NCBI GenBank assembly: GCA_018333655.1
Contig: JAGXTJ010000003.1
Span: 1-64,000, forward strand
DNA length: 64,000 bases
Source of the DNA: Bacillota bacterium
GTDB lineage: Bacteria > Bacillota > UBA994
Direction: 5' to 3'
The first letter of the stretch is position 1. Each line of letters begins with the position of its first letter. The notes below the pieces were generated by a model. The model saw only the letters and a list, made by a program, of their open reading frames with translations. It had not been told where the DNA came from and ran no database searches. The position numbers and the translations under genes are program-made. This document shows positions 9,701 through 38,056 of the stretch, piece after piece.

Positions 9701-9710
9701 TTCCCCCTTC

Positions 9711-21376: not shown

Positions 21377-22555
21377 ATGAGTGAGTTTCCTGAGTTTACG
21401 GGTAGGCCGCGCTACTATCGACGCCGATTCCCTTTCTTTCTCATGATGACCGTGGCCATAGTGGCCTCTATCCTAGGCGGGGTGGTGGGCTCATATGTCG
21501 CGCCACGCTACATTTTCGGGGGCCTTTTGCCCCATCCCAGCAATACGCCTAATTTCGCTAACTCGACTGCGCCGCCCCTGACCGGGCAGAATACTTTGTT
21601 TGATATGGTAGCGCGCGGGGCGGTGGTCGATGTGGCCGAACGGGTGGGCCCGACGATAGTAGGTATCGTTAACCTCGGTCGTGCCACGCGCGGGGTCACC
21701 ACACTGCGCCAGCAAGGCACAGGCTCCGGCATTATTTTTGACAAAGCGGGACTAATCGTCACCAACCAGCATGTTATAGATAACGCGGCGGAAGTCCGCG
21801 TCGTCTTCCCCGAGGGCGTAGAAGTCAGAGCAGAGGTTGTCGGGGCAGATTTCATTACCGACTTGGCGGTGTTGCGCATCAACCTAGCCGACCTGCCCGA
21901 AGGCAAGCGCGACTTGCCCGTGGCCGAGTTTGGCGACTCCGCGGCGCTACTGGTCGGCGAACTGGCCGTAGCCATTGGCAACCCCCTCGGGCTTGAGTTC
22001 CAGCGCACCGTTACGGCGGGCATCATTAGCGCCGTGGAGAGAACGCTGACCATGGATGACATCTCCTTCACCGTAATCCAGACTGATGCCGCCATTAACT
22101 CCGGTAACTCAGGCGGGGCTTTGGCCAATGCACGAGGGCAGATCATCGGCATTAATCAGGCTAAAATAACGGCTGCCGGTGTCGAAGGCATGGGCTTTGC
22201 CATACCCATCAATGTCGCCCGACCCATTATCGAGGACCTAGTACGTTATGGCAAGGTCATTCGCCCCTGGCTAGGTATCCGTGGTATCGCCCTTTCTCCG
22301 GCCATCGCCACCCAGTACGGGATCACAGTCACCGAGGGCATCTTTATAGACACCGTTATCGCTCGTAGCCCAGCCCATGTGGCGGGGCTCCGCCGTGGCG
22401 ACGTTATCGTCAGGTGGAACGGCGAACTGCTGACAGACTTTGAGCGCATGCGCAATCTAATCGCCGCTACCGGCGTCAATGGCGTAGTGCGGCTTGAAAT
22501 TCGCCGCAGCACTACCCTGTTCACAGTCGAAGTTAGGCTCGAGGCCGCACCTTAA
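21377..22555 (+). CDS. htrA: HtrA/DegP-like serine protease with PDZ domain
   Basis: A 392-residue membrane-anchored protease of envelope quality control. A basic start is followed by one membrane segment (about 22-44), a low-complexity linker, a trypsin-like domain with catalytic triad His132 (TNQHVID), Asp162 (TDLAVLRI) and Ser245 (NSGNSGGAL), and a C-terminal PDZ domain (IFIDTVIARSPAHVAGLRRGDVIVRWNGE). AAAGGAG lies before the chosen ATG; upstream in-frame starts fall in the terminator. Its place after walRKHI matches the yycK/htrC gene of Bacillus. It degrades misfolded exported proteins. The stop is two bases from rlmH. Confidence 0.93.
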   Translation: MSEFPEFTGRPRYYRRRFPFFLMMTVAIVASILGGVVGSYVAPRYIFGGLLPHPSNTPNFANSTAPPLTGQNTLFDMVARGAVVDVAERVGPTIVGIVNLGRATRGVTTLRQQGTGSGIIFDKAGLIVTNQHVIDNAAEVRVVFPEGVEVRAEVVGADFITDLAVLRINLADLPEGKRDLPVAEFGDSAALLVGELAVAIGNPLGLEFQRTVTAGIISAVERTLTMDDISFTVIQTDAAINSGNSGGALANARGQIIGINQAKITAAGVEGMGFAIPINVARPIIEDLVRYGKVIRPWLGIRGIALSPAIATQYGITVTEGIFIDTVIARSPAHVAGLRRGDVIVRWNGELLTDFERMRNLIAATGVNGVVRLEIRRSTTLFTVEVRLEAAP

Positions 22556-22557
22556 GC

Positions 22558-23037
22558 ATGAAGATCACCCTGCTCGCTGTCGGCTCCCTCAAAGAAGAGT
22601 ATTTTCGCCGGGCGGCAGAGGAGTACATGATGCGGCTCGCCCCCTATGCAGAGGTAAAGATAATTGAGATTCCAGAATATAAGACTACGCCGAGCGCATC
22701 GATCGCTAACCTAGAACAAGCCCTTGACAGAGAAGGAGCGGCCATAATTAAGTCCATACCAAAGGGGAGTGTGCCCATAGCCTTAGCTATCGAGGCCACT
22801 CCCCAATCTTCATTGCAGTTCGCATCCTACCTAGGCCGCCTGCGAGACAGTGGTCAAGGACAGGTGTGCTTCATTATCGGCGGGTCACATGGCCTGTCTG
22901 ACGCCGCAAAAAGAGCCTGCACAGACAAACTCTCTTTCGGCCCCCTCACCCTGCCCCATCAACTCGCCCGCATTATCCTGCTAGAGCAAATCTACCGCGC
23001 CTTTAAGATTATGCGGAATGAACCGTATCACAAATAA
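22558..23037 (+). CDS. rlmH: 23S rRNA (pseudouridine-1915-N3)-methyltransferase RlmH
   Basis: A 159-residue SPOUT methyltransferase of full length. The N-terminus MKITLLAVGSLKEEYFRRAAEEYMMRL, the knot motif FIIGGSHGLSDA (SAM loop) and the C-terminal LSFGPLTLPHQLARIILLEQIYRAFKIMRNEPYHK are diagnostic. It methylates N3 of pseudouridine 1915 in helix 69 of 23S rRNA, acting on assembled 70S ribosomes. It lies two bases after htrA and marks the end of the conserved wal locus; a damaged tRNA-Ser and an accessory island follow. Confidence 0.97.
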   Translation: MKITLLAVGSLKEEYFRRAAEEYMMRLAPYAEVKIIEIPEYKTTPSASIANLEQALDREGAAIIKSIPKGSVPIALAIEATPQSSLQFASYLGRLRDSGQGQVCFIIGGSHGLSDAAKRACTDKLSFGPLTLPHQLARIILLEQIYRAFKIMRNEPYHK

Positions 23038-23038
23038 T

Positions 23039-23162
23039 GGAGAGTTTCCTTGTTATTGGCTCTCTGTAGTCCTGCCCCACACCGCTAAGAGGTACCCTAG
23101 CACGATTGGAACTCGTGTCAGGTTAACCCTTGACGAGGGTTCGAATCCCTCTCTCTCCGCCA
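23039..23162 (+). pseudogene. Interrupted tRNA-Ser(GGA)
   Basis: From 23084 on there is a nearly complete class II tRNA: a D-arm-like CTA...TAG, anticodon arm CACGA-TTGGAAC-TCGTG (anticodon GGA), a variable arm TCAGGTTAACCCTTGA, T-arm GAGGG-TTCGAAT-CCCTC and acceptor TCTCTCC-G-CCA. The matching 5' acceptor strand is not next to the D-arm. GGAGAGT, able to pair six of seven positions, lies at 23039-23045 with 38 extra bases between. The gene is either broken or an unusual insertion product. It stands at the edge of a defence island, as expected for an integration site. Confidence 0.65.
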
Positions 23163-23178
23163 TTTATGTAGAAGCCAT

Positions 23179-23211
23179 AGGCTCTTGAGGAAGTACCTCA
23201 AGAGCCTTTTT
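23179..23211 (+). terminator. Terminator after the rlmH/tRNA-Ser region
   Basis: A perfect 12-bp stem (AGGCTCTTGAGG with CCTCAAGAGCCT), five-base loop AAGTA, then five T's. Confidence 0.92.
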
Positions 23212-23697
23212 GCATGGAAACTGTGAAAGTGGTCGTCTCGTCGCCGTGGCGACGACGGAATAAGTGAGAGTGGGCAGGTGCGTTGCTGGTTGACACTAGC
23301 TGTCAACCTTTGGCAACTGAACAGAAGGAAAACAGAGTGATTCGTGTGAAGTGTACGTGTGGACGAGAAGGCGCACGGTACATTTAGGAGTGGATGTCTG
23401 AGGGTGTGAATCTAAAGGCATTCATCTTGCTTAGTTTTGAGGCAATATCACTCTCAGTATAAGCAGTGGTGGGGCTCAATCCCCTGAGCCTTGCCTCATA
23501 TCTTCTGCTATCACTAGGGCTTCTGACCGTGTATGCAAGCCCTTGGGGCGTCACAGGTGCCTCCATAAAGAAGGAGTTACCAGTTATTTGTCGAAGGGTT
23601 ATGCGGATCAGTAATATGCAGTTTCGTAAGAATACTTACGTGTAAGACCTAGAATCTCCTACCAAAGACTCTTTCCCAGTGTCGCCCAGAGGCGTAG
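23212..23697. other. Intergenic region at the left edge of the defence island
   Basis: About 490 bases without a convincing gene. A 60-codon minus-strand frame at 23384-23566 has no ribosome binding site and no recognisable family. The stretch probably contains decayed sequence from the missing 5' half of the helicase gene that follows, and perhaps the junction of the island with the tRNA. Confidence 0.4.
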
Positions 23698-24863
23698 CCT
23701 GATCGGTATGTTCTCCACAAGAAGAAAAAGCTGTTCTTGGCGCACACCAATCCCGCTGTAGATAACCTAAAACGGCGCGTAAAAGCATCGGAGTGCAAGT
23801 TTTCAACAATCACAAAGTTCCTTAAAACAGGCGGGGTAGGTCAGGATTGCGAAATCTTGGTGGTTGATGAGTGCAGTACAGTTAGCAACAGCAATATGAG
23901 GGCAATTCTTGAAAGCCCGTGCTTTTCCATGGATACAGTAGGACATAAGCTATTGGTGCTGGTTAGAGATACGTACCAGATTGATTCCATTGAGTTCGGA
24001 AACTGGTTTGATATCGCGAGAAGATTTGTCCCTGATGCTTCGGTCTGTGAATTGACGACGCCATGGCGTAGTCGCGACAAGGGCTTGCCAAAACTGTGGC
24101 AGAGGGTTCGCGGAGTGGACGGCAAGGAACCAAACGCCGTGCTTGAATCGTTAACGCGCCAAGGCTATACGACAAATCTAGATAATTCTATTCTTACCGC
24201 CACTAAGAATGACGAAATTATACTCTGTCTCAATTATGACGGGCTGTATGGAATAAACAATATAAGCCGTTTTCTGCAGGAGAGTAATCCGCGACTTGCT
24301 GTAACTTGGGGCATTCAGCAGTATAAAGTCAATGACCCGATCCTGTTTAATGACTCAGACCGTTTTTTCCCCATAATCTACAACAACATGAAGGGGAGAA
24401 TTGGGGCATAGCGATATTTGATAGGGGCTTGGTAACGGAGCGAATACAGTTTGACATAGAGCTGGATAGGATACTAATGGGGACGGACGCCTTTGGGCAG
24501 GGCTTTCAATTGCTGCCCAATGCGCCAAGTGGGTACTCTGTAACTAAAAGCAAGAGCGCTGACGAGGATAATCCAAGAGGTCGTTCCTCGAAAGATGATG
24601 TTGCTCCGTTCCAGGTCGCTTATGCAGTCTCTATCCATAAATCTCAGGGTTTAGAGTACGATTCGGTCAAAATCGTCACCACCGATGAGGTTGACGAACT
24701 GATAACACACAATAATTTCTGCACGGCAATTACCCGGACTAGAGGTAAGCTGAAAATCTACTGGACACCGGAAGTGGAAAAGAAAGTGCTTGAAAGCATA
24801 AGGCCGAAAAACATTGGCAGAGATGTTTTATTGCTTCGTAACGACCTTTGCGACCAAGGATGA
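23698..24863 (+). pseudogene. Superfamily 1 helicase (RecD/UvrD-like), truncated and frameshifted
   Basis: Two frames together encode the C-terminal part of a DNA/RNA helicase. The first, from about 23698, reads LFLAHTNPAVDNLKRRV, CEILVVDECSTVSN (motif II DEC) and LVLVRDTYQIDSIEFGNW, then ends at 24411. The second (about 24390-24863) contains VAYAVSIHKSQGLEYDSVKIV and NFCTAITRTRGKLKIYW, the C-terminal helicase motifs V and VI. Similarity between the two frames switches near 24395-24410 (KGRI, then IAIFDRG), so a small indel has broken the gene. The Walker A motif and the start are missing. It stands directly before the Gabija genes and may once have been part of that defence cluster. Confidence 0.8.
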
Positions 24864-25021
24864 TTACACGGGCCCAAAGCGTTACGACGCAAGCGTCAAG
24901 TAGTTCACACATACATGGGATATTTTGGACATAAGTGACCTACGCGAACGGGCGCAGAGCCTACTTTCCTGTTCCCGACGGTGTTCGAAGGAGATTTTAC
25001 AGCAATAGAAAGGATAATCGA

Positions 25022-27010
25022 ATGAAAACACAACCCTACATCTGTCGTGTGCATATCGAAAATTTCAGGAACTTTCATGCCGTGGATTTCCGGCTTAGTG
25101 AAAAGCAGGTGCTCATCGGAGAAAACGCTGTAGGGAAGAGCAACCTACTTTATGCATTGCAGCTCATCCTTGACCCGACGCTTTCGGAAAAGGATCGAAT
25201 GCTTGAGGAGTCTGACTTTTGGGAATGCTTGCCAGACCCAATGGGTACCGGCGAGCAAATCCTGATTGAGGTCTACTTCGCAAATTACGCAGATAACCAG
25301 AATGTGCTTGCTCAATTGACTGACGCGACGGTGATGCTCGACGGCAAGGAAACGCTAAAGCTCACATATAAATTCTTCAAAAAACACGGGGATAAGCCGG
25401 ACTATAGCTATGCGATTTTCAAGGGCGACGATGAAACGAGAGCATTTACCTACGAAGACCGGAAAATCCTGAACATCCGCGTGATAAAGGCTATCCGGGA
25501 CGTTGAGTTGGAAATGCGTAACTCCAGAACATCGCCACTGACGCAGATCATCAGGCAGAAATACACTGTCAGCAAGGATGTACTTGCCGAGATATCAAAA
25601 GCACTCGAAGAGAAAGGTGCGGATACCCTTCAGATTGGTCAAGTTGGTGATCTGGAACAGCGCATCCGTACCCTGATGAACGCGATGGTATCATTCAGCG
25701 CTGACGAGTTTGGCGTTTCTTTGAAAACCATGAACATTGACGCGACTAGGCTCCTCTATACATTGCGCCCATTGATCAACAACCGTGAAGCCGGGAACAC
25801 AAGTCTTGGCGTGAATAACATCCTCTACATTGCCCTAATCCTTCTCTTGATTGAGGACGACACAATTAAGACCTATTTACCCAGCGATCTCTACGCCGAG
25901 TTAGTAGAGAAGGATAAACACAACCTAATTCAACGTTGTTACAACAAGCTCGAAACGGTGGATGGGTATGCTCTCAACCTCGCCGCGCTCAAAGATACAG
26001 CCATGCGTGACGGTCTTTATTCGTTTCTGTCTCAAACAATTCCGAGTGCTCACGGCTCAACGATTCTAGCAGTTGAAGAGCCGGAAGCCCATTTGCATCC
26101 GATATACCAAAGGCTGCTATATAAGCATGTGATGAACAAGACCAACACGTCGGTCATAATAACAACCCATTCTACGCACATATCTTCGGTTGCGCCAATA
26201 ACATCGCTCGTTCACCTGATTGCTAAGCCAGACGGAACATGCGTTAATACCACAGCAGGGCTCCAGCTTCCCAGCGAAGAATACGCGGATTTAGCGAGAT
26301 ACATTGATGTCAAGCGCGGAGAGCTTTACACAGCGAAAGGTATCATATTTGTCGAGGGAATTGCCGAGGAGTACTTAGTGACGAGTTTTTCAGAATGCTT
26401 GGGATTCGAACTGGATCGGCTTGGGTTAGTTATTTGCGATATCAACTCAACGAACTTCAAACCGTACTGTCGTTTTGCTGATGTACTCGGGATTCCATAT
26501 GTCGTTATCACAGATGGCGACTATTACCATGATGTCGACGGTAAAAAGCACTTCGGAGATCTAGCTTCTGATGATGACAACGCCAATGGTTATGACGGGC
26601 TCGACCGCGCCTCGCGCATTTATGGGGACACCATCAAATTGCTATACGGCGAGGCATTCGAAGAACTTGATTTTGACCAGCAGCGCGAAGCCTTTGCGGG
26701 ACTGGATGTGTTCATTGGGGAATATACCTTCGAGGTGGAGATATTCAGGGCCGCCAGTGCAACCGACAAAGCAGTTATCTATTCTGTTTTCGACCAATTG
26801 ACAAGCGGTGGTGACCAGCAGAGACGGAACTTTTCAGCCAACCTGACATCCGGCGATTACTACAAGTGCCTACGCCAAATTGAATCCTCGCACAGCGGCA
26901 TTGGGAAAGGGCGGTTCGCACAGCGGCTTGCTGAAAAGGTCACCCCAACAATGATTCCTGGTTACATATCAAACGCGATAAATAGGATTGTGCAAAAGGT
27001 TAGGGGTTAG
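25022..27010 (+). CDS. gajA: Gabija-type OLD-family ATPase/TOPRIM nuclease GajA
   Basis: A 662-residue OLD-family protein. The N-terminal ABC-type ATPase has Walker A GENAVGKS (33-40), Walker B ILAVEEPEAHLHP (E352/E353) and the H-loop IITTHSTHISS. The C-terminal TOPRIM domain has the first acidic motif IIFVEGIAEEYL (E445) and the D-x-D-like pair in VITDGDYYHD (D498, D500). In Gabija, GajA is a nucleotide-regulated DNA-nicking nuclease that acts with the helicase GajB against phages. The ATG follows AAAGGA; an upstream in-frame extension lacks a site. Family length is about 580-660. The downstream UvrD-like gene starts four bases after its stop, which is the Gabija operon order. Confidence 0.9.
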   Translation: MKTQPYICRVHIENFRNFHAVDFRLSEKQVLIGENAVGKSNLLYALQLILDPTLSEKDRMLEESDFWECLPDPMGTGEQILIEVYFANYADNQNVLAQLTDATVMLDGKETLKLTYKFFKKHGDKPDYSYAIFKGDDETRAFTYEDRKILNIRVIKAIRDVELEMRNSRTSPLTQIIRQKYTVSKDVLAEISKALEEKGADTLQIGQVGDLEQRIRTLMNAMVSFSADEFGVSLKTMNIDATRLLYTLRPLINNREAGNTSLGVNNILYIALILLLIEDDTIKTYLPSDLYAELVEKDKHNLIQRCYNKLETVDGYALNLAALKDTAMRDGLYSFLSQTIPSAHGSTILAVEEPEAHLHPIYQRLLYKHVMNKTNTSVIITTHSTHISSVAPITSLVHLIAKPDGTCVNTTAGLQLPSEEYADLARYIDVKRGELYTAKGIIFVEGIAEEYLVTSFSECLGFELDRLGLVICDINSTNFKPYCRFADVLGIPYVVITDGDYYHDVDGKKHFGDLASDDDNANGYDGLDRASRIYGDTIKLLYGEAFEELDFDQQREAFAGLDVFIGEYTFEVEIFRAASATDKAVIYSVFDQLTSGGDQQRRNFSANLTSGDYYKCLRQIESSHSGIGKGRFAQRLAEKVTPTMIPGYISNAINRIVQKVRG

Positions 27011-27014
27011 GCAA

Positions 27015-28811
27015 TTGACAAAGTACTTTCAGAGGAAACTTCAAGAAATCCGCAATGACCCAGAGCAACTTGCGGCATATGACGCATATGGCAATGCGGT
27101 TGTCGTGGCAGGACCAGGAAGTGGAAAAACAACCGTTTTGACGCTCAAAGTTATGCGTCTCTTAAACGAAGCCATTTGTCCCCCAAGAGGGTTGGCTTGC
27201 TTGACTTACAGCACAGAAGCCGCCCGCGAGTTCAAGAATCGGTTTGCAAAACTCGGGCTAACCAAGCGTGAAAATGTGTTCCTCGGCACCGTCCACAGCT
27301 TTTGCCTTGCGGAAGTTATAACCCCATTCGCTCACTTATACCCCAAATATAGAATCCCCCAACCCATACGGATCATATCGGAGTCGCAAAAAGAAAAGCT
27401 TTTCGATTCACAAGGATATGACGGGCAGCCACGGATGATCGATGTCGACAAGGAACGCACACGAAACATACGCGGTATCAGCCGTGTCGCTCTTGAAAGT
27501 TACGAAGTTGCGCTCAAGGCGGCCATTTCTTTTGAAGATTTACTGGTAGAGCGCGGCTATATTGACTTCATCAGCATGATAAAATTCTCCGTGGAGCTTA
27601 TTCAGAATGAGCCATATGTACGAAAGGCTCTCGAAGCAAAGTTTCCTTGGGTGGTCATTGACGAGTATCAGGATTTGGGGAGGCCACTGCATGAAATCGT
27701 CCTTGCTCTGCTCAATCTGGCAAACATCAAGGTATTCGCCGTAGGAGATGCCGACCAGTCCATTTACGATTTCCAAGGCGCAGCTCCAGATTATCTGACC
27801 GAGTTAAGCCGAAGGACCGACGTCCAATGTATCCGTTTGAGAAACAACTATCGCAGTTCTCAGGTCATCGTTGACGCATCCGAGCATGTGCTAGAATGTA
27901 AAAGAGGATATATAGCTTCAGGGCAGCTGCGCAATTACCAAGCATCGATCGAGTTCTGCGAATGTGCTTATGGAATGGAAGAACAGTATTCTGCCGCTGT
28001 GAAGTTGATCAGAAGATTCCATGGAGAAGGCATCCCCTTCCATGAGATTGCTGTCTTGATGGGCAACAACAATCAGGTCAAAGAGCTGTATGCCGAATGC
28101 ACAGCAAAAGGCATTCCTGCCTATATTGCCCGGCAGAGCTTCAGGAACACCGATCCAATTCTCTGGCTTCAAAACTGCGTCTGCTGGCTCCAAGACAAGA
28201 GCACTGGGTCGTTTGATGAGATATGCTCTGCCTGGAAGGGCTTCCTGTCGCTCAAGAGGGACAACGCAATCGATGAGAATGAGTATCTGGGCATCAAGAG
28301 AAACCTAATTCGCGTATTGACTGCCAGCCGCATTCATAAAGATAATCTCTATGAATGGCTTCGCTTCATTTTTACAGAATTGGATATCTGTGCGTTGTTC
28401 TCCGGGTCAGACCGGTTTCCAGATGAAATCGAGAATTTTAAGAAGCTGGTTCAGGTCTCAAGGGAAACGGAGCCGACTTTAACAATCGACTTTATGGCTC
28501 GTCTCGGTGTCCCTGATAATCAGGTAGTCTTGTCCACGAGGCACAGCGCAAAAGGCCTAGAGTTTGATTGTGTAATCATGCTTGGCATGGAAAAAGATAG
28601 CTTTCCCAGCTACTATGACACCACTGTCAGACAAATTGAAGAAGCTCGCCGGCTCTGCTTTGTCGCTGTTAGCAGAGCAAGGAAGGCCTGTGTATTGGTT
28701 CGATCAAAACAACTACCTAATAGATATGGTCGGTGGTTTCCTAAGGAACCATCTCCGTTTTGGATTACCATTAAGGGGTTTCTAGATGAACGTTTGGGCA
28801 GTACCTGCTGA
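27015..28811 (+). CDS. gajB: Gabija-type UvrD/Rep-like helicase GajB
   Basis: A 598-residue superfamily 1A helicase. The motifs in order are Q-motif region NDPEQLAAYDAYGNAVVVAGPGSGKTT (motif I), ACLTYSTEAAREFKNR (Ia), WVVIDEYQDLG (II), VFAVGDADQSIYDFQGA (III), RLRNNYRSS (IV), LSTRHSAKGLEFDCVIM (V) and RRLCFVAVSRARKACVL (VI). The start is taken as TTG at 27015, four bases after gajA and behind GGGGTTAGG; a GTG at 26988 overlapping gajA is possible. GajB is thought to sense DNA ends and supply the signal that licenses GajA. All motifs look intact, so the pair should be functional. Confidence 0.9.
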   Translation: MTKYFQRKLQEIRNDPEQLAAYDAYGNAVVVAGPGSGKTTVLTLKVMRLLNEAICPPRGLACLTYSTEAAREFKNRFAKLGLTKRENVFLGTVHSFCLAEVITPFAHLYPKYRIPQPIRIISESQKEKLFDSQGYDGQPRMIDVDKERTRNIRGISRVALESYEVALKAAISFEDLLVERGYIDFISMIKFSVELIQNEPYVRKALEAKFPWVVIDEYQDLGRPLHEIVLALLNLANIKVFAVGDADQSIYDFQGAAPDYLTELSRRTDVQCIRLRNNYRSSQVIVDASEHVLECKRGYIASGQLRNYQASIEFCECAYGMEEQYSAAVKLIRRFHGEGIPFHEIAVLMGNNNQVKELYAECTAKGIPAYIARQSFRNTDPILWLQNCVCWLQDKSTGSFDEICSAWKGFLSLKRDNAIDENEYLGIKRNLIRVLTASRIHKDNLYEWLRFIFTELDICALFSGSDRFPDEIENFKKLVQVSRETEPTLTIDFMARLGVPDNQVVLSTRHSAKGLEFDCVIMLGMEKDSFPSYYDTTVRQIEEARRLCFVAVSRARKACVLVRSKQLPNRYGRWFPKEPSPFWITIKGFLDERLGSTC

Positions 28812-28917
28812 GATTTTCGTCCTATGCGACAAGAGAGGATGGCAGACTGTGTTGAAGTAGTTGACATTTTTTTACAAACGGTATATAGTAGCGTTAGTAC
28901 GGAAAGAAGCGGTATTG

Positions 28918-29287
28918 ACCATGAGCAACTTAGTGGGTTTAGACCGCCATTGCTATATCTAGTACCCTCTCTAGAAGATTCGATTAAGTCAGGATAACCA
29001 GGTGCGAATACATTTGTGGACATTCTATACCTAGTTAAGCTAGGCTTCATTGGCGCGGTACCGTCTTTAATGGGTCGTCCTTCCTATTCGGCTAATGACT
29101 TGCTTAAACTGTACCTGTAACTGTTACCTACAAGGGATTCGCTCTTATAGGCAGCTTGAGGCTGAGCTCAGTAGAAATACTGAGTTTACTTGGTTACTAA
29201 GGGGGCTGCTCCCTGACCATAGAACTTATGACTGGTATCTAAAAGAGGAAGCGTGCGCCTTTCTACGGAAACTAGAGAATGTGACTT
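28918..29287 (+). pseudogene. IS1182-like transposase N-terminal remnant
   Basis: Conceptual translation across one stop and one frameshift gives the N-terminal (DUF772-type) part of an IS1182/IS5-group transposase. One frame gives VPSLEDSIKSG, a stop, then TFVDILYLVKLGF and GRPSYSANDLLKLYL. The next frame gives LQGIRSYRQLEAELSRNTE and FTWLLRGLLPDHRT. The catalytic DDE domain is missing. The element is therefore an old, inactive fragment between gajB and the acetyltransferase gene. No terminal inverted repeats were found. Confidence 0.7.
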
Positions 29288-29329
29288 GGTTGCTTTTTCA
29301 GAGACGAGCTTTGGAAAGGGGGATTTGGT

Positions 29330-29803
29330 GTGGGAAAAGATACTAACGTGATAATTAGCAGAGCAGGCGAAGCTGACATCTCTGCCCTCTGTGACTTTGA
29401 ACTTCAGGCCAGACTTACGGAGCCGGGTGTTCTGGTCGCAGAGTTTGAGGAGAAACGCTACGCGCAATTCCTGGAGTCGTTGCAGCTTAATGGTTCACGT
29501 GATAATGCGATCCTCATAGCGTCCGACGGTTATCGTGTGGTCGGAAGATGTGACGTAGCGATACTTAGAAGCACCATGGATGGAGTAGCCACTGGATACA
29601 TTGATTGGATTTATGTGCTCAAGCCTGATAGGTGCCAAGGAATTGCCTCAAGGCTGCTTCTAGCTGCGGAGCAGTTTTTTAGGGACTCAGGGGTTAAGCG
29701 CTACTATTTATTTACAGCCGCTAACGAGGAAGCTCAGGCTTTCTATCACAGGAATACCAGCTTGAGCTTTACAAGGCGTGAGGTTGCGGAGAAGGATTTA
29801 TAA
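29330..29803 (+). CDS. GNAT family N-acetyltransferase
   Basis: A 157-residue acetyltransferase. GNAT features are present: first strand [18 protein letters not shown], a central strand [23 protein letters not shown], where the motif A acetyl-CoA loop reads R-C-Q-G-I-A in place of the usual R/Q-x-x-G-x-G/A, and the C-terminal [19 protein letters not shown]. Substrate unknown; an aminoglycoside- or peptide-type amine is typical. GTG start behind GGAAAGGGGG. The last 66 bases, together with 12 bases past the stop, are duplicated about 1 kb downstream (30749-30826). It overlaps the fossil transposase region and belongs to the accessory island. Confidence 0.82.
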
Positions 29804-29815
29804 CCAAGCGACAAA
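29738..29815 (+). repeat. 78-bp direct repeat, left copy
   Basis: The 3' end of the GNAT gene plus 12 following bases. A copy differing at only a few positions lies at 30749-30826, exactly 1011 bases away. Together they bracket a module with a nucleotidyltransferase gene, its broken HEPN partner and a truncated gene. Confidence 0.85.
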
Positions 29816-29906
29816 GGGGTTGGCGCCGCTTGCTGTTACCTTTTTCCGTGTCCATGCGTACAATTGGGATAAAGAGGCTGATTTGTCTGCTAAGGGGGTG
29901 GGAATC

Positions 29907-30197
29907 TTGAGCACGTTAGAAAGAATACAGGAGCAGCGTGAGGAAGTACTCACTATTGCCAGGCGCTACGGGGCCACGAAGGTTCGTATCATCGGGTCTG
30001 TGGCACGTGGAGAAGATGATGAGGAAAGTGACATAGATTTTCTTGTGGACCTGGCCCCCGGTAGAAGCCTATTTGACTTGGGCGGCATGCTCATGGATTT
30101 GAACCTTCTGTTCGGGAAACACGTGGACATCACCACTGAGAAGGGATTAAAGAGACGTATCCGCGACCGTGTTCTCAGCGAGGCGGTGAGCTTGTGA
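29907..30197 (+). CDS. mntA: MNT-type nucleotidyltransferase antitoxin
   Basis: A 96-residue minimal nucleotidyltransferase. The active-site block [21 protein letters not shown] (GS-x10-13-D-x-D, here D-I-D) and a third acidic position in [17 protein letters not shown] are present. In HEPN/MNT (type VII) systems this enzyme adds AMP to the HEPN RNase toxin and silences it. The TTG start follows AAGGGGGTGG. It overlaps the next frame by four bases (GTGA), the standard operon arrangement with a DUF86 HEPN gene, but here that partner is broken. A lone antitoxin with an inactive toxin suggests that selection on the pair has been lost. Confidence 0.82.
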
Positions 30198-30340
30198 GAG
30201 ATAGACACGACTACTTCGATGTTGACGTTGACCTGGTATTGGGCTGTGGCGGAAAAGGAGTTGCTGACACCCAAGCCGCAGCTCAAAGAGCTATAGAAAC
30301 TCGCCGGTTACCCCGTTACGGAGAACCTTACCATAAATAA
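30194..30340 (+). pseudogene. hepT: HEPN (DUF86) toxin remnant
   Basis: A GTG start overlaps the antitoxin stop. The frame from the start reads VRDRHDYF, then a DVDVDLV segment. The similarity then moves to another frame (WYWAVAEKELLTPKPQLKEL), which resembles the C-terminal helix of DUF86 HEPN proteins. The middle of the gene, including the R-x4-6-H catalytic motif, is deleted and the end is out of frame. The toxin is therefore dead. Confidence 0.6.
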
Positions 30341-30386
30341 TGGCAAATTTGCTTATTAGTAGCTGCGAGGCAGGCGCAGAGAATCC

Positions 30387-30776
30387 ATGGTGCACGAAAC
30401 CTTGAATGCTGCAGAGTCCTTTCTCCTGCAATGTTGCGATGGGACTGCCACTAATGCTTTAGCTGCTTGGGAGCGATATGCGGCTCACTACCCAGAGCTC
30501 CAGAGGAAATGCTGTGAGAACCAGGGGGAACAGTGGAGAGAGATGTTTGTCGCGTATGTTTTGCCCAGGCTCTGCGAAGACAGGGATAAAATGAGGCAAG
30601 CTAATGGGAACCTTCTGGACATTCTTCCACCGCTAATGGAAAGATGTACGGGACTATTTGAGACGAAAGACACCATCAACATGGTCATCTACGTCGGCCT
30701 TGGAAACGGTGCCGGCTGGTTGGCATGGTGCCAGGCTAATCACCACAAGCTTTCTATCACAGGAATACCAGCTTGA
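30387..30776 (+). pseudogene. N-terminal fragment of an unknown (DUF2268-like?) protein
   Basis: A 129-codon frame. Its first 118 residues look like a genuine helical protein ending in NMVIYVGLGNGAGWLA. A similar VGLGNGAGW strand precedes the catalytic region in DUF2268-type putative zinc proteases, as far as I recall. At about 30749 the frame runs into the right copy of the 78-bp repeat (sequence of the GNAT gene end) and stops within 10 codons. The downstream part, including any HExxH motif, is gone. I treat it as truncated by the rearrangement that created the repeat. Confidence 0.5.
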
Positions 30777-30826
30777 GCTTTACAAGGCGTGAGGTTGCGG
30801 AGAAGATCTTGTAACCAAGCGACAAG
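30749..30826 (+). repeat. 78-bp direct repeat, right copy
   Basis: Second copy of the GNAT gene 3' end (left copy 29738-29815). Differences are small (for example GGATTTATAA against GATCTTGTAA). It truncates the preceding frame. Confidence 0.85.
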
Positions 30827-30936
30827 GGAGTAAGAAAAACCTCTCCCAATTTAGCAGCATGGGAGAGGGCAGCATATAGCCATGAAGGGACCGATGGTAC
30901 AGTATGCCGCCCCCGGTGCCGCAGAGGCACGATTTC

Positions 30937-31043
30937 AACCACAGAGTACACAGAGGCGTGGAAAAGAGAGGAAGATGGAACGACCACGACTACGCATCTA
31001 AACTCCTTGTTCCTCTCTTTCATACTCTGTGTACTCTGTGGTT
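30937..31043. mobile_element. MITE-like 107-bp palindromic element
   Basis: A perfect 19-bp terminal inverted repeat (AACCACAGAGTACACAGAG at 30937-30955, its complement at 31025-31043) with an inner inverted repeat (AAAAGAGAGGAA against TTCCTCTCTTTC) flanks a short core. No coding capacity. The ACAGAGTACACAGAG ends are like those of small dispersed palindromes seen in many bacterial genomes. The flanks (30827-30936 and 31044-31211) hold no gene. Confidence 0.7.
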
Positions 31044-31158
31044 AATAAACGATACTTCTCTCTTCTCTTTTGCCGCTTGCTTCTTCCTTCAGATAGGTAA
31101 GTGCGCGTGAGGTTATTCTCTAGTTGGGCGAGCTGGAGCGAAACTTAGCGCGTCTATT

Positions 31159-31186
31159 TTGCGTATAGTTACCTAGCATGTAAAAT
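31159..31186 (+). promoter_or_regulatory. Likely promoter of the NatAB-like operon
   Basis: TTGCGT (31159-31164), a 16-base spacer and TAAAAT (31181-31186), 25 bases before the start codon of the ATPase gene. Confidence 0.5.
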
Positions 31187-31211
31187 TAAGTGGCCATGAG
31201 GGGGTAATTCT

Positions 31212-32126
31212 ATGAGTACGGCACTCCAGCTACAAAACATTAACAAGACTTTTGGCGGGACACAAGTTGTAAGCGACGTATCATTTGCTGTCAAGGCGGG
31301 AGAAATATTTGGGCTGCTAGGGCCAAACGGTGCTGGCAAGACTACGACTATACGCTGCATCCTCGGCATTATGTACCCCGACAGTGGGCGCATAATTTTT
31401 AGCTTTGGCAGCGACAGGCATGTTGCCCGCTCTGCTATCGGCTACCTGCCGGAGGAGAGGGGCCTGTATAAAGACGTGCGGGTGCTCGATCTACTCTTGT
31501 ACCTGGCGAATCTTCGTGGGTACTCACTGTCTAAGGCACGGTTAAGGGCCATGACCTACCTAGCGAAGTTTGGGCTAGAGGGTAGAGAGAAGGCCAAGAT
31601 CGAGGAGCTATCTAAGGGCATGGCGCAGAAGGTGCAGTTCATTGCCTCTATTCTGCATGAGCCGAAGCTGCTTATCCTTGACGAGCCTTTTTCGGGTCTT
31701 GACCCGGTTAGTCAAAACATCGTCAAGCAAGAATTGCGCGAGCTGTCGTCACAGGGTACGGCGCTCCTCTTGTCGGGGCATCAAATGAATGTGCTAGAAG
31801 AACTATGCGACAGAATCTTTCTCATGAACAAGGGGCGACAGGTGCTCTACGGGCCCATCGATCAAATCAAAGAACAGTATGCCGACCACAAGTGCACCAT
31901 CTATGGCGATAACGAGGGCGTGGCCTTTGAGCGTCTGCCGGGAATCAAGCAGGTGACCAGGGACAAAATGCGCACCACGATTTTTCTCGCCAAAAGTGTC
32001 GAGGTACAGCAGTTCTTGCATTCGCTGCCGCAGGGGGTCGACATCAAGGAGCTCTCTGTAGACCGTATTTCGCTGCACGATATCTTTGTCAGTGTGGCCC
32101 AAGGGGGTGTTCCGCATGAAGGATAG
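31212..32126 (+). CDS. ABC transporter ATP-binding protein, NatA/YhaQ-like
   Basis: A 304-residue ATPase: Walker A GPNGAGKT near residue 38, Q-loop region, signature ELSKGMAQKVQ, Walker B LLILDEPFSGLDP and H-loop LLSGHQM, followed by a C-terminal regulatory domain (VDRISLHDIFVSVA). The degenerate KGM signature and the linked permease with a large extracellular loop are typical of the NatAB/YhaQP exporters (sodium or antibiotic efflux). Its stop overlaps the permease start by 11 bases. A terminal-repeat element ends 170 bases upstream. Confidence 0.9.
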   Translation: MSTALQLQNINKTFGGTQVVSDVSFAVKAGEIFGLLGPNGAGKTTTIRCILGIMYPDSGRIIFSFGSDRHVARSAIGYLPEERGLYKDVRVLDLLLYLANLRGYSLSKARLRAMTYLAKFGLEGREKAKIEELSKGMAQKVQFIASILHEPKLLILDEPFSGLDPVSQNIVKQELRELSSQGTALLLSGHQMNVLEELCDRIFLMNKGRQVLYGPIDQIKEQYADHKCTIYGDNEGVAFERLPGIKQVTRDKMRTTIFLAKSVEVQQFLHSLPQGVDIKELSVDRISLHDIFVSVAQGGVPHEG

Positions 32127-33306
32127 TCTGAAAGTAGCAGCTTGGGAAATTAGTAAAATGCTTAAGAACAAGTCCTTTCTCATCTCAATCTTACTCGCTC
32201 CCATCATCATGGGGGTGTTTAGCGCTTTGCCCGCCCTTATGGCGCGAGTCGAGGAAGACAGGGGCTTGCATCTCTACATAGTAGACGAGCTTGGTATTTA
32301 CGAAGCGCTAGCTGCCCACGCCCCAGCGCTCAATATTGTGCTAGAGCGTCACACCGGCGACTTAGCCGCTTTGCAGGACCAAATTAGCGGTAAGCCCGGC
32401 AGCGCCTACCTCGTACTAGATGAAAAAGTGCTAGCAGAGCGGCGGGCGACCATAATGCTTGGGGGAGACGGCCTGCCTACCCTCACCGCTTTGAACGCGC
32501 TACTAGAGAGCCTGCTACGCCAACTAGCCTTGCAGCGTGAAGGTTTGCCTAACGAGGCCATCATTTCGGCTCTGACGCCATTTAGCATTGACAGCGCCTC
32601 CCTTACCCAGGCGGGCGATAGCATGGCGCGGGTTGTGCCCGCCGTTTTTAGCGCCATCATTCTCTTTGGTGTCTACATTACGGGCATGATGATTTTGCAG
32701 AGTGCCATGGCCGAGAAGAAAGACCGCATGGCCGAGGTGATTCTTTCTTCGGTCAGCGCCGAAAGCCTGATGCAAGGCAAGCTCTTGGGTTACTCGGTGC
32801 TTGGCTTGCTACAGATACTCTCGTGGTTGGTCTTTGGCGCGGTGGTGGCTCAGTACCGATTAAACATTCCTGTTTTCACTTACCTGTGGAGGCCTGAGCT
32901 AGCTCTATCTCTCTTCTTTGCTATCGCGGGCTACTTTCTTTATGCCTCCATCTTGGTAGCCATCGGCTCGACCATCGATGACCTCGCTACCACGACGAAT
33001 TTTCAAAGCACCATTATGATGATACCCATCCTGCCATTACTCTTTGTTCAGCCCGTTATAGTTAACCCGAATGGCATCGTGGCTACCTTCGGCAGCTACT
33101 TTCCGTTGACAGCCGCGGGGGTAATGTTGCTCCGGCTGGGGCTCTCGACGACCATGACCTGGCTTGATATTCTCCTGCCATCAGTATTCTTGCTTCTGAC
33201 GCTAGTCTTAGTCGTCAAGCTTGCCGGTAGGATTTTTCGCGCGGGCATGCTCATGTACGGAAAAAACGCCACCCCCAGCGAAATGTGGAGGTGGCTTAGC
33301 CGCTAG
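32116..33306 (+). CDS. ABC transporter permease, NatB/YhaP-like
   Basis: A 396-residue membrane protein. One N-terminal helix (about 18-38) is followed by a large extracellular domain (about 40-170) and five or six further helices, the ABC2_membrane_3 layout of NatB-type permeases. The EKKDRMAEVILSSVSAESLMQGK coupling loop lies between helices 2 and 3. The ATG inside the ATPase gene is chosen because MKDSLKVAAWEISKMLKNKS is the usual family start. The gene ends four bases into the convergent minus-strand gene. Confidence 0.9.
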   Translation: MKDSLKVAAWEISKMLKNKSFLISILLAPIIMGVFSALPALMARVEEDRGLHLYIVDELGIYEALAAHAPALNIVLERHTGDLAALQDQISGKPGSAYLVLDEKVLAERRATIMLGGDGLPTLTALNALLESLLRQLALQREGLPNEAIISALTPFSIDSASLTQAGDSMARVVPAVFSAIILFGVYITGMMILQSAMAEKKDRMAEVILSSVSAESLMQGKLLGYSVLGLLQILSWLVFGAVVAQYRLNIPVFTYLWRPELALSLFFAIAGYFLYASILVAIGSTIDDLATTTNFQSTIMMIPILPLLFVQPVIVNPNGIVATFGSYFPLTAAGVMLLRLGLSTTMTWLDILLPSVFLLLTLVLVVKLAGRIFRAGMLMYGKNATPSEMWRWLSR

Positions 33307-34928
33307 TCTTCCCTTGTGCGGGGGGCAAGAGGCTTATCGCTGCCTATGCCCCACTCGATCGTTTTGTCCCACCCGCCTTGCGCTAGTATGCGCCGCAGGG
33401 CGGCGTTTTCGAGCGTGTCGAAGGCCCTGCCGGAGGTAGATAAGGCGTTCCTGTGGGCTTGGTTGAGGTAGGCGGCTAGATTGTGCCGCAAGTCCTTCTC
33501 TGCGGTCTCGCTATAGACGAGGAGCGCGGCCTCTACTCCGGCCGGGCCGGCTCTTAGTACGGTGACGATATCAAAACTGCTCAAGGTGCCCTCGAGGTAG
33601 CGTTGGGCATTGTAATTAGCTACGTATCCGTCAAGGTTGACTAGGGTGAGCAGTGAGAAGGCTAGTGCGCCGACAATGGCCGTTAAACGCATAATAGAGA
33701 ACTGCCATTTTTGCAGAGCAATGATGGCGCAGCAGATGACTGACAAGAGGAGCATAAATATGAGCGGCAGCAGCCGCCACATGGTAAGGCCAAAGGCGTC
33801 GACATAGAGCATCATCTTGCTAAAGGCTGTCGCTATAAGTAGCAGCGTCAGCACGGCGAGTAGGATGTTTAGCAGACGCAGGGCGAAACTGCGACTACGT
33901 AGGGTTCGGCTGCTTAAATTGCCTATAGTAAGAACGGCTAGATTGATCACGGCAATGGCACAAAGCTCAAAGAACCCGCGTCTGGCAAAATCGGCATAGG
34001 TGAGGTAGTGGCTTGGTAGCTCGCCGACAAAGGACGAGAAGAAGTAACTCAATTGGCCAGCGATAAACACCAGGTAGACCGTGGTTAGCATGCCCATTAC
34101 GGTGAGAACAGTAGGTAGTGGCAGAATGCGCAGTGTGGCGAGCGAGCTTTTGGCCGCGCTTAATCGATTGCCCTGGCCCTTAGCCTCGTGAACGGAGCCG
34201 GCAATTAACCCGAAGAGGTAAGAAGCGGTAGGAATCGTCAGGATGAGCTTTATGGTAAGCTCTTCATTCTGCCACATCAGATTCCGCCAGGCGGCGGCAA
34301 AGTCGCCAACGAGGATAGTAAAATCGCCACTGTCAGCTGTTAGTAGCAGGGGCAGAACTAAGCTCAGAAGCATGATGCTGAGCACTGCCCCGAGCAGAAT
34401 AGGCCATGCTTTTGCCATAAAAAGGATTTTGTTCTGGCGTAAAGCGAAGAGACTCTTGTAATGACTGCCGAAGTGGCGAAGTGCTACACCCAGCAAGCCA
34501 TTAAGGAAATCGAGCGGCAGCCAGTCACTGGTCTTCCCGAGCAGGGTCATCTTGGTGGTTGCCAGAACCCAGTAGACAGCAAAGCAGAAGAGAAATAAAG
34601 CGCGCCACCCCGCTAAGCCCTCGTTCCTCCACAGGGCGAAGCTCAGCCCTGTAAGTTGCAGCATGGCGAGCCAAAAATAGCTCTCGCGCGACATAGGGAT
34701 ACCCTTGCTCTTAAAATACAAGACGGAAAGCGTGCCGAAGAGAGCGGTGAAGAGCGTTACTTGCAGGCCCTGCCAAGTGAAAAAGACCCAGTGCCAGAAG
34801 AGAAATCCGAGCGCGAAAACGAAAACAGCGAGCAGCCCATCCTCACTGGTGGGGGTAAAGGGATGGCGTGGCGGTACAGGCTTTGGCAGAACAACTTCGT
34901 CGCGAGTTGGTAGCACTTGCTCAGTCAA
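33303..34928 (-). CDS. DUF4153/DUF4173 multi-pass membrane protein
   Basis: A 541-residue integral membrane protein with about 12 hydrophobic segments between residues 35 and 430 and a soluble C-terminal tail of about 90 residues. The layout and segments such as FFSSFVGELPSHYLTYADFARRGFFELC match the DUF4173/DUF4153 family, of unknown function. The TTG start lies directly after the stop of the small regulator gene behind AAAGGAG, so it is the third gene of a minus-strand operon (DUF2975, regulator, this gene). It overlaps the convergent permease gene by four bases. Confidence 0.8.
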   Translation of the reverse strand: MTEQVLPTRDEVVLPKPVPPRHPFTPTSEDGLLAVFVFALGFLFWHWVFFTWQGLQVTLFTALFGTLSVLYFKSKGIPMSRESYFWLAMLQLTGLSFALWRNEGLAGWRALFLFCFAVYWVLATTKMTLLGKTSDWLPLDFLNGLLGVALRHFGSHYKSLFALRQNKILFMAKAWPILLGAVLSIMLLSLVLPLLLTADSGDFTILVGDFAAAWRNLMWQNEELTIKLILTIPTASYLFGLIAGSVHEAKGQGNRLSAAKSSLATLRILPLPTVLTVMGMLTTVYLVFIAGQLSYFFSSFVGELPSHYLTYADFARRGFFELCAIAVINLAVLTIGNLSSRTLRSRSFALRLLNILLAVLTLLLIATAFSKMMLYVDAFGLTMWRLLPLIFMLLLSVICCAIIALQKWQFSIMRLTAIVGALAFSLLTLVNLDGYVANYNAQRYLEGTLSSFDIVTVLRAGPAGVEAALLVYSETAEKDLRHNLAAYLNQAHRNALSTSGRAFDTLENAALRRILAQGGWDKTIEWGIGSDKPLAPRTRED

Positions 34929-34929
34929 T

Positions 34930-35154
34930 TTAGTCTCTCCTTTCGCTTCCCTCTGTCAAAAACTCTAAGATATCGCCGGGCTGACAGTCTAGGGCCTGGC
35001 AGATGGCCTCAAGGGTAGAGAACCTGACCGCCTTGGCCTTGCCCGTCTTTAAGATCGACAGGTTGGCCTGGCTTATGCCTATTTTTTCGGCCAGCTCGCC
35101 CGATGAAACTTTGCGCTTGGCCATCATCACATCTAAATTAACCACAATGGGCAT
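34930..35154 (-). CDS. Small Xre/Cro-like transcriptional regulator
   Basis: A 74-residue DNA-binding protein that is essentially one helix-turn-helix: SGELAEKIGISQANLSILKTGK is helix 2-turn-helix 3, followed by the AVRFSTLEAICQALDCQPGDILE end of the YozG/Cro type. The ATG follows AAGGAGG with normal spacing; a longer frame upstream has no site. It pairs with a DUF2975 membrane protein 13 bases upstream, a common partnership in Bacillota in which the membrane protein may modulate the regulator. Confidence 0.9.
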   Translation of the reverse strand: MPIVVNLDVMMAKRKVSSGELAEKIGISQANLSILKTGKAKAVRFSTLEAICQALDCQPGDILEFLTEGSERRD

Positions 35155-35167
35155 GGCCGCTGCCTCC

Positions 35168-35617
35168 TTACACTGTGTAGTCGACTTCTTGCTTGAGGGA
35201 CACGGCTTCGCTAAATACATTCTGTATGACGCGCAGTATCAGGCTCATAAAGGCAGCCGGTATGGCGAACATAAGCCAGGGGAAGTAGTAGAGCGAGGCG
35301 GCCAAAGCAATACCAGCGCCCACGGCCGCGCACCATGACAGGGTGCGGAGACGCAGAGCATTCTCGGGGATAAAGACCTCGGCCTGCGCGATGCGCTCTA
35401 GCAGGCGGTACAAATTATATAGTAGAATAGCCGCTGGCAGGCTACCGCCGTAGATGGTGACCAAAAAATGCAGCTCAAGCCCCCGTAAGTAGGCGCGCGA
35501 GTAACTTAGCAGCCACCTCACTAAGGCTGGGGCGAAAGCTACTACACCTAAGAGCCCAAAGGCAAAAAATAGGACACAAAGCTTACTAAGAATGATGGAC
35601 TTGTGGTCATTCCACAT
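35168..35617 (-). CDS. DUF2975 membrane protein
   Basis: A 149-residue protein with four predicted membrane helices (about 12-32, 45-70, 92-112 and 115-137), the size and topology of DUF2975 proteins. It is the first gene of a three-gene minus-strand operon with a YozG-like regulator, as is usual for the family. The ATG follows GGGAGG; an upstream in-frame start lacks a site. Function unknown. Confidence 0.82.
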   Translation of the reverse strand: MWNDHKSIILSKLCVLFFAFGLLGVVAFAPALVRWLLSYSRAYLRGLELHFLVTIYGGSLPAAILLYNLYRLLERIAQAEVFIPENALRLRTLSWCAAVGAGIALAASLYYFPWLMFAIPAAFMSLILRVIQNVFSEAVSLKQEVDYTV

Positions 35618-35808
35618 TGGGGTCCTCCCATCAGGCCTGCGGCCCTTACTTTGAGGGAAGTATAGCACGATTATTATCGATAGGCAAGATATTTTTATCG
35701 AATAACAATATCTTGCCCTCCTGCAGGTGGTTTGTCTTGCCGCCTGCAGGAGGTGGCGGAGAAACGTCGAAATATTCTCTAAGACTTTTTAAGAAAGGCG
35801 GTAAGAAA

Positions 35809-36159
35809 ATGATAAAGAAGAGCGATGCTATTGCCGTTAAAGAGGCCCACAACCTCAGGGGGGGTGTAGGCCGAATAGAAATGAAGCACTTCTATGACGA
35901 GGCGGAATTTAACGGTCTAGGCCGCCTCTACGGCCTACTGGTTGTGCCGCCGGGCTGTTCGGTCGGCGACCACAGCCATATCGGGGAGCAAGAGTCCTAC
36001 TATATTTTAGAGGGTGTCGCTACCTACAATGATAACGGCCAGGAGGTAACACTCTACCCCGGCGACATGGCCCTTTGTCCGGACGGCGAATTTCACGGCG
36101 TCAAGAACGAAGGCGAGGTAGACCTAAAGTTTATCGCCTTGATCAGCAACACTAAGTAG
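35809..36159 (+). CDS. Cupin-domain protein
   Basis: A 116-residue single-domain cupin. The two motifs are PPGCSVGDHSHIGEQESYYILEG (metal ligands His, His, Glu) and PGDMALCPDGEFHGVKN (last His ligand), giving a complete 3-His/1-Glu site. It is a cytosolic beta-barrel; small cupins of this type include isomerases, dioxygenases and sensors, and I cannot choose among them. The ATG is preceded by AAAGGCGG. It is monocistronic between a divergent membrane-protein operon and a terminator. Confidence 0.88.
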   Translation: MIKKSDAIAVKEAHNLRGGVGRIEMKHFYDEAEFNGLGRLYGLLVVPPGCSVGDHSHIGEQESYYILEGVATYNDNGQEVTLYPGDMALCPDGEFHGVKNEGEVDLKFIALISNTK

Positions 36160-36188
36160 AGGCTAGCTTGCGGCCAGCATTTTAGCAA

Positions 36189-36234
36189 AAAAAGTACTCG
36201 GCGCCCCGTCCATAGGGGTAACCGAGTACTTTTT
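36189..36234. terminator. Bidirectional terminator
   Basis: AAAAAGTACTCGG pairs with CCGAGTACTTTTT (13 bp) around a 20-base loop; A-rich on one side and T-rich on the other, it can serve both the cupin gene and the convergent pepF. Confidence 0.9.
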
Positions 36235-36256
36235 ATTGCTCTCTTATTGCGCTAAG

Positions 36257-38056
36257 TTAAAAACTCTTGACCACTTCGTCCACGAGGTAGCCCACGTAGT
36301 CGACCGCCTTTTTAATAGCCTGAGGTTCAGTCATATCTACGCCAGCCATCTTGGCCAGCTCGAGCGGCGGCTTGGTGCTGCCGGCTTTAAGCACCTCTAG
36401 CCATTTGTCGATTACCGGCTGCCCCTGGTCGGCAATGTCTTTGGCGACCGCGGTGCCGATGGTAAGACCGGCAGAGTAGCTGTAGGGATAGAGGCCCATG
36501 TAGAAATGCGGCTGCCGCATCCAAGTTAGGCGCGCACCGTCGTCAATCTCAACTTCGCCGCCCCAGAACTCCTCCAGAATTTCACCTTGCACACGGCTTA
36601 AGAGCGTCGCTGTGACAGGCTGGCCCTTTTCGGCCAAGGCAAAGATACGGCGTTGCAGCTCGCCTTCGATGAGGTGGCGCACGAAGTTGTGGTAGTAAGT
36701 CAAGAGGAAGCCCATGTTGAGCCAGCGGCGCATGCGGGGGTCTGTAGTCTCGCTGCCGATGTAGTTGCCGACTAGGAGCTCATTAATAATGGACGGCGCC
36801 TCGGTAAAGAACATCGAGCCACGCACATTAGACAAACGCTGGTAGCGCATAGAAAGTACGCCATGCCCGGCATGACCAAGCTCGTGCGCTAGTACTAGGG
36901 CATTGCGCATGCTGTCGGCCCAAGTGACGAGAATGTAGGGATGGGCATCTGGCACGCCATAGCAGAAGGCGCCGGTCGACTTGCCGATGTTTTCGGCGAG
37001 GTCAATCCACCTGTTCTTTAGCGCGTCCTCCATTATCGTGGAGTATTCTGGGCCAAGCACAGCCAGCGCCTTGAGAATAACATCCGAGGCGTCAGCGTAA
37101 GTAGTGGGGGGGTTGAAATCGGGGTCGAGGGGAGCCTCGATGTCGCAGTAGAGAAGTTTATCTAGGCCAAGTACCTCTTTGCGCAGCTTGGCGTAACGGC
37201 GCATATGGGGCGCAATCTCGGACAATATGACGTCGTGCAGGGTATTGTAGGCAGGTAAGTCCACCTCTTGGCCGTGCAGCAGCATGTGGGTGGCGGACTT
37301 GTAGCCCCTGAGGCGTGCCAGAACGACGTGCTTCTTAACTTCGGTGCCCCAGGTAGCGCCGTAGGTGTTTTGGTAGGCCTTAAGCCCCTTGGTAAAAGAT
37401 GCGAAGGCGTTCCGGCGTAGTACATGGTCGGGGGACTTTTCGTAGGCCTCTTCATAAAGAGCGAACGACATGGGGTGACTCTGGCCGTCTTTATCTGTGA
37501 TGGGGTCAAAGGCCATGTCCGCGGCCTTAGAGCGGGTATAAGTGAGGTACGGCGCGCCTAAAACTTCGCCTAGCGAGGCTAAGGCTACCTCCGTATCGGG
37601 GTGTAGCATATGGGGTTTTTCATCGAGCATGCGCTGCAAAGTGCGGGCAAACTCTTTAAGCTTAGGTTCCTCGCCTAAGTAACGTTCTAGTGTGCCGGCG
37701 GGCAGAGAGAGCGCCTCGGAGCGAATAAAGGAGATGGCGGCGAATACTTCGGAGCCAAGCGCCGAAGCTCTCCCCATCATCGTCTGGTTAGCAGAGTCGG
37801 TACCGTCGCCAGATAGTAAGAGAGAGGCATAAGCGGTAACGCGGATAAGGCGCTTTTGCAGGGTTTCGGCGGCTTCTAGGCAGGCAAAGAGGGTTAAGGG
37901 GTCGCGACCAAGTGTGCCCTTGTACTTGGTTACACTCGGTATATCGGCGGTAATCGCGGCAAGTTCGGCGTCCCATTCCGCAGCAGAGGGGAAGATATCC
38001 CTAAGATCCCAAGTTTGCTCTGCTGGCACTTCCAAGCGGCTAAGTCTCTTTTTCAT
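36257..38056 (-). CDS. pepF: Oligoendopeptidase F (M3 family)
   Basis: A 599-residue cytosolic zinc endopeptidase. The catalytic HExxH lies in LVLAHELGHAGHG, with the third ligand in the following SIINELLVGNY region (family motif E-A-P-S-x-x-N-E). The N-terminal half is the helical substrate channel (EQTWDLRDIFPSAAEWDAEL). PepF cuts peptides of about 7-17 residues and fits an organism that lives on peptides. The second of two ATGs (MNM) is used because AGGAGG directly abuts the first. Length matches the family (about 600). Confidence 0.95.
   Translation of the reverse strand: MKKRLSRLEVPAEQTWDLRDIFPSAAEWDAELAAITADIPSVTKYKGTLGRDPLTLFACLEAAETLQKRLIRVTAYASLLLSGDGTDSANQTMMGRASALGSEVFAAISFIRSEALSLPAGTLERYLGEEPKLKEFARTLQRMLDEKPHMLHPDTEVALASLGEVLGAPYLTYTRSKAADMAFDPITDKDGQSHPMSFALYEEAYEKSPDHVLRRNAFASFTKGLKAYQNTYGATWGTEVKKHVVLARLRGYKSATHMLLHGQEVDLPAYNTLHDVILSEIAPHMRRYAKLRKEVLGLDKLLYCDIEAPLDPDFNPPTTYADASDVILKALAVLGPEYSTIMEDALKNRWIDLAENIGKSTGAFCYGVPDAHPYILVTWADSMRNALVLAHELGHAGHGVLSMRYQRLSNVRGSMFFTEAPSIINELLVGNYIGSETTDPRMRRWLNMGFLLTYYHNFVRHLIEGELQRRIFALAEKGQPVTATLLSRVQGEILEEFWGGEVEIDDGARLTWMRQPHFYMGLYPYSYSAGLTIGTAVAKDIADQGQPVIDKWLEVLKAGSTKPPLELAKMAGVDMTEPQAIKKAVDYVGYLVDEVVKSF

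Follow-up and report, generated by a model that had tools for sequence, protein, structure and literature searches.

What places an intact-looking Gabija defense pair directly beside a broken helicase gene? In the window, the 64,000-nucleotide stretch of a Bacillota draft genome (contig JAGXTJ010000003.1) analyzed here, the helicase remnant ends 158 bp before gajA on the same strand. An earlier note on this DNA offered two explanations: the helicase may have been part of an older, larger defense module, or it may have been an independent system that was lost after Gabija arrived. In B. cereus VD045, Gabija is a complex of an ATPase-TOPRIM nuclease and a UvrD-like helicase that cuts invading DNA (PMC10781630, PMC8136825), and the pair in the window has the same gene order, domains, ATPase and TOPRIM acidic residues, and helicase motifs. 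The features on which our analysis relies are collected in Table 1.

Table 1 Features of the rlmH-to-pepF region of the window
Feature	Positions	Strand	Description and basis
rlmH, insertion target	22558-23037	+	ORF; homologs in 13 of 15 searched genomes, this one counted; pattern and alignment
Left direct repeat (attL-like)	23020-23061	+	Starts GAACCGTATCACAAATAATGG; 32/42 bases identical to 30323-30364
tRNA-Ser(GGA) relic	23100-23260	+	3' half, downstream terminator and flank; just inside left border
Helicase pseudogene, first piece	23713-24411	+	PDC-S53 positions 534-751; 5' part missing
Helicase pseudogene, second piece	24414-24863	+	PDC-S53 positions 757-893, beyond frameshift
gajA	25022-27010	+	662 aa; class 2 OLD nuclease (ABC ATPase plus TOPRIM); Pfam, PADLOC, alignments
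gajB	27015-28811	+	UvrD/Rep-like helicase; TTG start four bases past gajA stop; Pfam, PADLOC, relatives
GNAT acetyltransferase cargo gene	29330-29803	+	Pfam PF00583
MntA-like nucleotidyltransferase	29907-30197	+	96 aa; Pfam PF01909
Right direct repeat (attR-like)	30323-30364	+	Second rlmH 3' end copy; preceded by CCCGTTACGGA, as are distal repeats of other genomes
pepF-like gene, convergent	36257-38116	-	Adjoins rlmH in two sibling species; right edge of 13.2 kb

GajA matches the PADLOC profile PDLC00070 over positions 1-595 of 596 (E 7.6e-199), and Pfam finds AAA_15, AAA_21, and OLD-like_TOPRIM domains in it. Its ATPase and TOPRIM stretches align with those of B. cereus GajA and with the TOPRIM domain of BpOLD, and Glu445, Asp498, and Asp500 correspond to the catalytic Glu and DxD of the TOPRIM active site, whose residues in GajA have been named previously (PMC10781630). 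In an alignment with four relatives, the P-loop GENAVGKS (Lys39), EEPEAHLHP (Glu352/Glu353), TTHS (His383), the TOPRIM residues Glu445 and Glu449, Asp498-x-Asp500, and Lys629 are invariant across all five sequences. Compared with the VD045 protein, the window GajA belongs to a distant clade: it has 662 residues as opposed to 578, and a serine (NSTNF) stands where B. cereus GajA has the TOPRIM glycine Gly409. Because serine also occupies this position in three of the four relatives, whose genes are intact, the substitution looks like a clade trait rather than damage or decay. The one close chromosomal relative that a species-level genome scan returned, from a complete Anaerocolumna genome, is the closest at 70% identity; at that locus (L015, positions 8001-10000) gajA is itself broken by a frameshift and a stop, with gajB intact. 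No GajA relatives were found in plasmids at E <= 1e-40 or in phages at E <= 1e-20.

GajB covers positions 4-600 of the 604 in PADLOC PDLC00117 (E 1e-203), contains UvrD helicase domains by Pfam, and carries the helicase motifs GPGSGKT and DEYQD, which are invariant in the alignment with its relatives. Since those relatives begin at the corresponding residue, the true start is probably the TTG at 27015 and not position 26988. Both genes are full length and uninterrupted by any stop or frameshift. Differences from relatives concentrate at third codon positions in each gene (0.36/0.22/0.66 for gajA and 0.25/0.15/0.64 for gajB, by codon position), the codon pattern of selection, which supports an intact-looking operon. 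The earlier note had judged from the acidic residues and helicase motifs that the pair looks functional; the end-to-end profile matches, the conserved catalytic positions, and the codon statistics all agree with that view. As judged from these comparisons, the two genes probably constitute a live, if putative, defense system, and GajA and GajB would most likely work like their counterparts elsewhere, an ATPase-held TOPRIM nuclease being coupled to a UvrD-like helicase (cf. PMC10781630, PMC8136825). Gabija is further marked by a 4:4 GajA-GajB complex, nuclease activity, and protection against phages, which the window pair would be predicted to share.

The gene upstream is in a different condition. 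Its first piece matches the PADLOC candidate PDC-S53 (PDLC05035), a stand-alone helicase, at profile positions 542-751 (E 4e-98), or 534-751 when the genome is searched; the stretch 24429-24863 continues the match, in a different frame, over positions 758-893 of 900 (E 6e-48). The frame switches between about 24402 and 24414, and the last 40% of the protein is kept, with profile positions 1-533 and the Walker A motif missing. Intact S53 relatives have 920-934 residues, with a P-loop helicase core from about residue 520, and the full-length PDC-S53 protein (~900 residues, P-loop helicase core) is not present in the window remnant. Because tblastn of two intact S53 relatives against 23038-25100 gave nothing significant upstream of 23722, the 5' end with its Walker A motif has been lost rather than shifted into another frame. 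The earlier description of a truncated, frameshifted, dead helicase is thus borne out: neither tblastn nor the profile search found an intact 5' end, and the truncation, which removes ~530 N-terminal positions, stands independently of the frame change near 24402. With the 5' loss and the frameshift, this is no longer a PDC-S53 system. The first piece is 60% identical to an intact S53, two intact S53 proteins are also 60% identical to each other over the same part, and the codon-position pattern is the same; since it has diverged no further than the intact proteins have from one another, the gene broke recently. A search of the literature consulted returned no publication on PDC-S53.

It is somewhat unlikely that an error of sequencing or assembly accounts for the frameshift, which would leave a helicase that is merely 5' truncated and possibly still expressed. 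The frame change does fall near a short G run in a draft assembly without attached reads, and the remainder of the reading frame carries no extra decay; even with the frameshift set aside, however, the protein lacks Walker A and about 530 N-terminal positions, so that ATPase function would be lost. Far less probable still is the proposal that the helicase was the third subunit of a helicase-gajA-gajB module that has since shrunk to the Gabija pair. Strand and position, directly upstream of gajA across a 158-bp gap, are what such a module would have, but gene neighborhoods elsewhere speak against it. All six S53 relatives, on three other chromosomes and three plasmids, are lone genes that never adjoin gajAB, and their neighbors are type I restriction or McrBC-like genes, or plasmid genes. 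No S53 gene lies beside gajA in the Gabija loci examined, whose GajA proteins are 47-70% identical to that of the window. Of 399 phylum genomes, 4 contain a strong S53 match and 20 a strong GajA match, and the window genome is the only one with both. The order helicase-gajA-gajB, which the earlier note had proposed to compare across relatives, was therefore not seen at any other examined S53 or Gabija locus; on these neighborhoods we rejected the three-gene module, and the older, larger system is not supported. Of the two options, the independent one fares better. Independence and loss are supported, and Gabija may have arrived before or after the loss. The best reading of these sequences is that the helicase was an independent defense gene, recently broken. 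One of the chromosomal S53 loci is itself interrupted, and a search for further S53 loci in the families of two genomes (G036 and G252) found none beyond those already known.

Why two unrelated genes should lie side by side is answered by a context that the earlier reading had not seen, insertion at the 3' end of rlmH. In two sibling species, only a few bases separate rlmH from the end of the convergent pepF-like gene; in the window the distance between them is 13.2 kb, and both siblings lack the insert. The last codons of rlmH at 23020-23037, GAACCGTATCACAAATAA, which encode EPYHK and the stop, recur at 30323-30340 as GAACCTTACCATAAATAA with three changes, all synonymous, so that both copies end in the same peptide. 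Over the whole repeat, 32 of 42 bases agree (76%), as against a best of 27 among 300 dinucleotide shuffles. The 7.3-kb segment between the repeats, which contains the helicase remnant, gajAB, the GNAT gene, and the MntA-like gene, has a G+C content of 0.476, compared with 0.548 and 0.545 in the flanking chromosome. Insertion at the rlmH 3' end, evident from the empty arrangement in the siblings, and direct repeats bearing the rlmH end at both borders also characterize SCC and ECC elements. Both defense systems appear to be cargo of a single insert that was acquired horizontally at rlmH.

A survey of 399 phylum genomes with a degenerate rlmH-end pattern, counting at least two copies on one strand within 20 kb, found such repeats in at least 14, the window genome and at least 13 others; in 11 of these 13, rlmH was confirmed as the gene whose end opens the run. 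The tetranucleotide TACG occurs at a fixed place directly upstream of 9 of 14 distal (non-rlmH) copies, as opposed to none of 12 rlmH-borne copies. The distal copy of the window has it, inside a nine-base word, CCCGTTACG, common to three other sites. Cargo between the repeats elsewhere includes type I restriction, a Thoeris pair, and DarT with a macro-domain partner (DarTG), and one other genome carries a large serine recombinase at the far end between its repeats. In one genome, two rlmH copies, one of them frameshifted, flank a segment with DarT and a macro-domain protein, after which another rlmH-end repeat follows.

Traces of rearrangement lie in and beside the segment. Contig 57 of this genome carries an intact tRNA-Ser(GGA), and the relic is 83% identical to its 3' half and flank, although the 23100-23260 stretch itself is not called as a tRNA; a related genome has similar tRNA-relic-like stretches (L160, L161), likewise without a callable tRNA. 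The GNAT gene's 3' end occurs twice (29735-29820 and 30746-30831, 92% identical, 1011 bases apart), the two copies flanking the right repeat. In 30194-30340, no HepT partner gene is seen behind the MntA-like gene. That interval contains a 48-codon frame that opens on the stop of mntA and closes with the EPYHK-stop of the att-like repeat; the residues at its start, VRDRHDYF, could be what is left of a deleted HepT gene. To the right, 30345-36256 adds a further 5.9 kb that is absent here in the two siblings and encodes an ABC transporter pair, an XRE-like regulator, and a cupin-like gene. Because this part is partly host-like in G+C (0.500 to 0.530), is missing from the siblings, and showed no att-like repeat when one was sought at its right edge, the insertion history is composite, the 13.2 kb having been built by at least two events.

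What the sequences show directly is that two siblings lack the insertion, that the end of rlmH is repeated, that G+C content is low, that the Gabija genes are intact, and that the helicase is broken. Beyond this, we consider it likely that 23041-30340 is an SCC/pseudo-SCC-type cassette at the rlmH 3' end that has lost its recombinase and holds an intact gajA-gajB pair and a recently broken, independent PDC-S53 gene. Against this stand the lack of a PF07508-family recombinase, repeats that are only 76% identical, and the additional 5.9 kb without a right att-like repeat. A rather improbable alternative is an ordinary defense island, assembled by illegitimate or homologous recombination and devoid of cassette mobility, in which the repeat is a by-product of imported rlmH sequence. 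The genome has no large serine recombinase, and the partial tRNA relic and duplicated GNAT end do suggest messy rearrangement. Evidence against such an island is the recurrence of the repeat at rlmH in 13 or more further genomes, whose cargo varies, and the TACG that precedes 9 of 14 distal copies and none of the 12 rlmH-borne ones, and that the window's distal copy has. For the cassette, we infer that a Ccr-like large serine recombinase inserted it at the end of rlmH, with the defense genes either carried in or collected later; the recombinase and part of the S53 gene would then have been lost and gajAB kept intact. Deletion and frameshift inside the cassette would have removed the helicase and left Gabija unharmed, presumably because the two had never worked together.

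This architecture has published counterparts. The Enterococcus cassette chromosome (ECC) and staphylococcal SCC likewise insert at the rlmH 3' end, are bordered by repeats with the last rlmH codons, and carry defense cargo, including restriction systems (PMC6222049). The window cassette differs from them in its core, TATCACAA / TACCATAA instead of TATCATAA, and in lacking a ccr-type recombinase: a search of the whole draft genome for the PF07508 family gave no match. It is for this reason best called pseudo-SCC-like rather than SCC, and, with no large serine recombinase found in the genome, it is probably stranded, its mobility being past or in trans. Across Bacillota, rlmH islands have been located by matching the last ~12 bp of rlmH, and they include tandem and pseudo-SCC forms (PMC10061031). 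Those islands, often tandem, have a downstream rlmH-end copy, as here, and carry genetic-conflict genes. They were traced by way of Pol-SSB primase pairs and the recombinases with them; nothing of this kind was noticed in the window, whose cargo is Gabija.

The rlmH end is thus already known as a slot for defense genes, and the window provides a well-documented new example without introducing a new type of system. Through it, a lineage represented only by draft genomes joins those with rlmH cassettes, Gabija joins their recorded cargo, and side-by-side unrelated defense genes are explained by a shared landing site rather than a shared mechanism. Searching downstream of rlmH offers a simple route to more cassettes, as at least 14 of 399 genomes have the repeats and several of these have defense genes between them. 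More tentatively, and on balance doubtfully, the rlmH end may be a phylum-wide slot that rotates complete defense systems, older ones being deleted as newer ones enter; this locus would then show such turnover under way: next to a live Gabija pair, S53 would have disappeared only recently, and the cassette could be moved only by recombinases acting in trans.

Searches of 22500-36500 for RNA families returned none at the gathering score, and a scan for promoters and terminators gave counts in line with chance. A perfect inverted repeat at 30937-31043 has 19-bp arms, AACCACAGAGTACACAGAG, that lie 69 bases apart, and it looks like a dispersed palindromic repeat.
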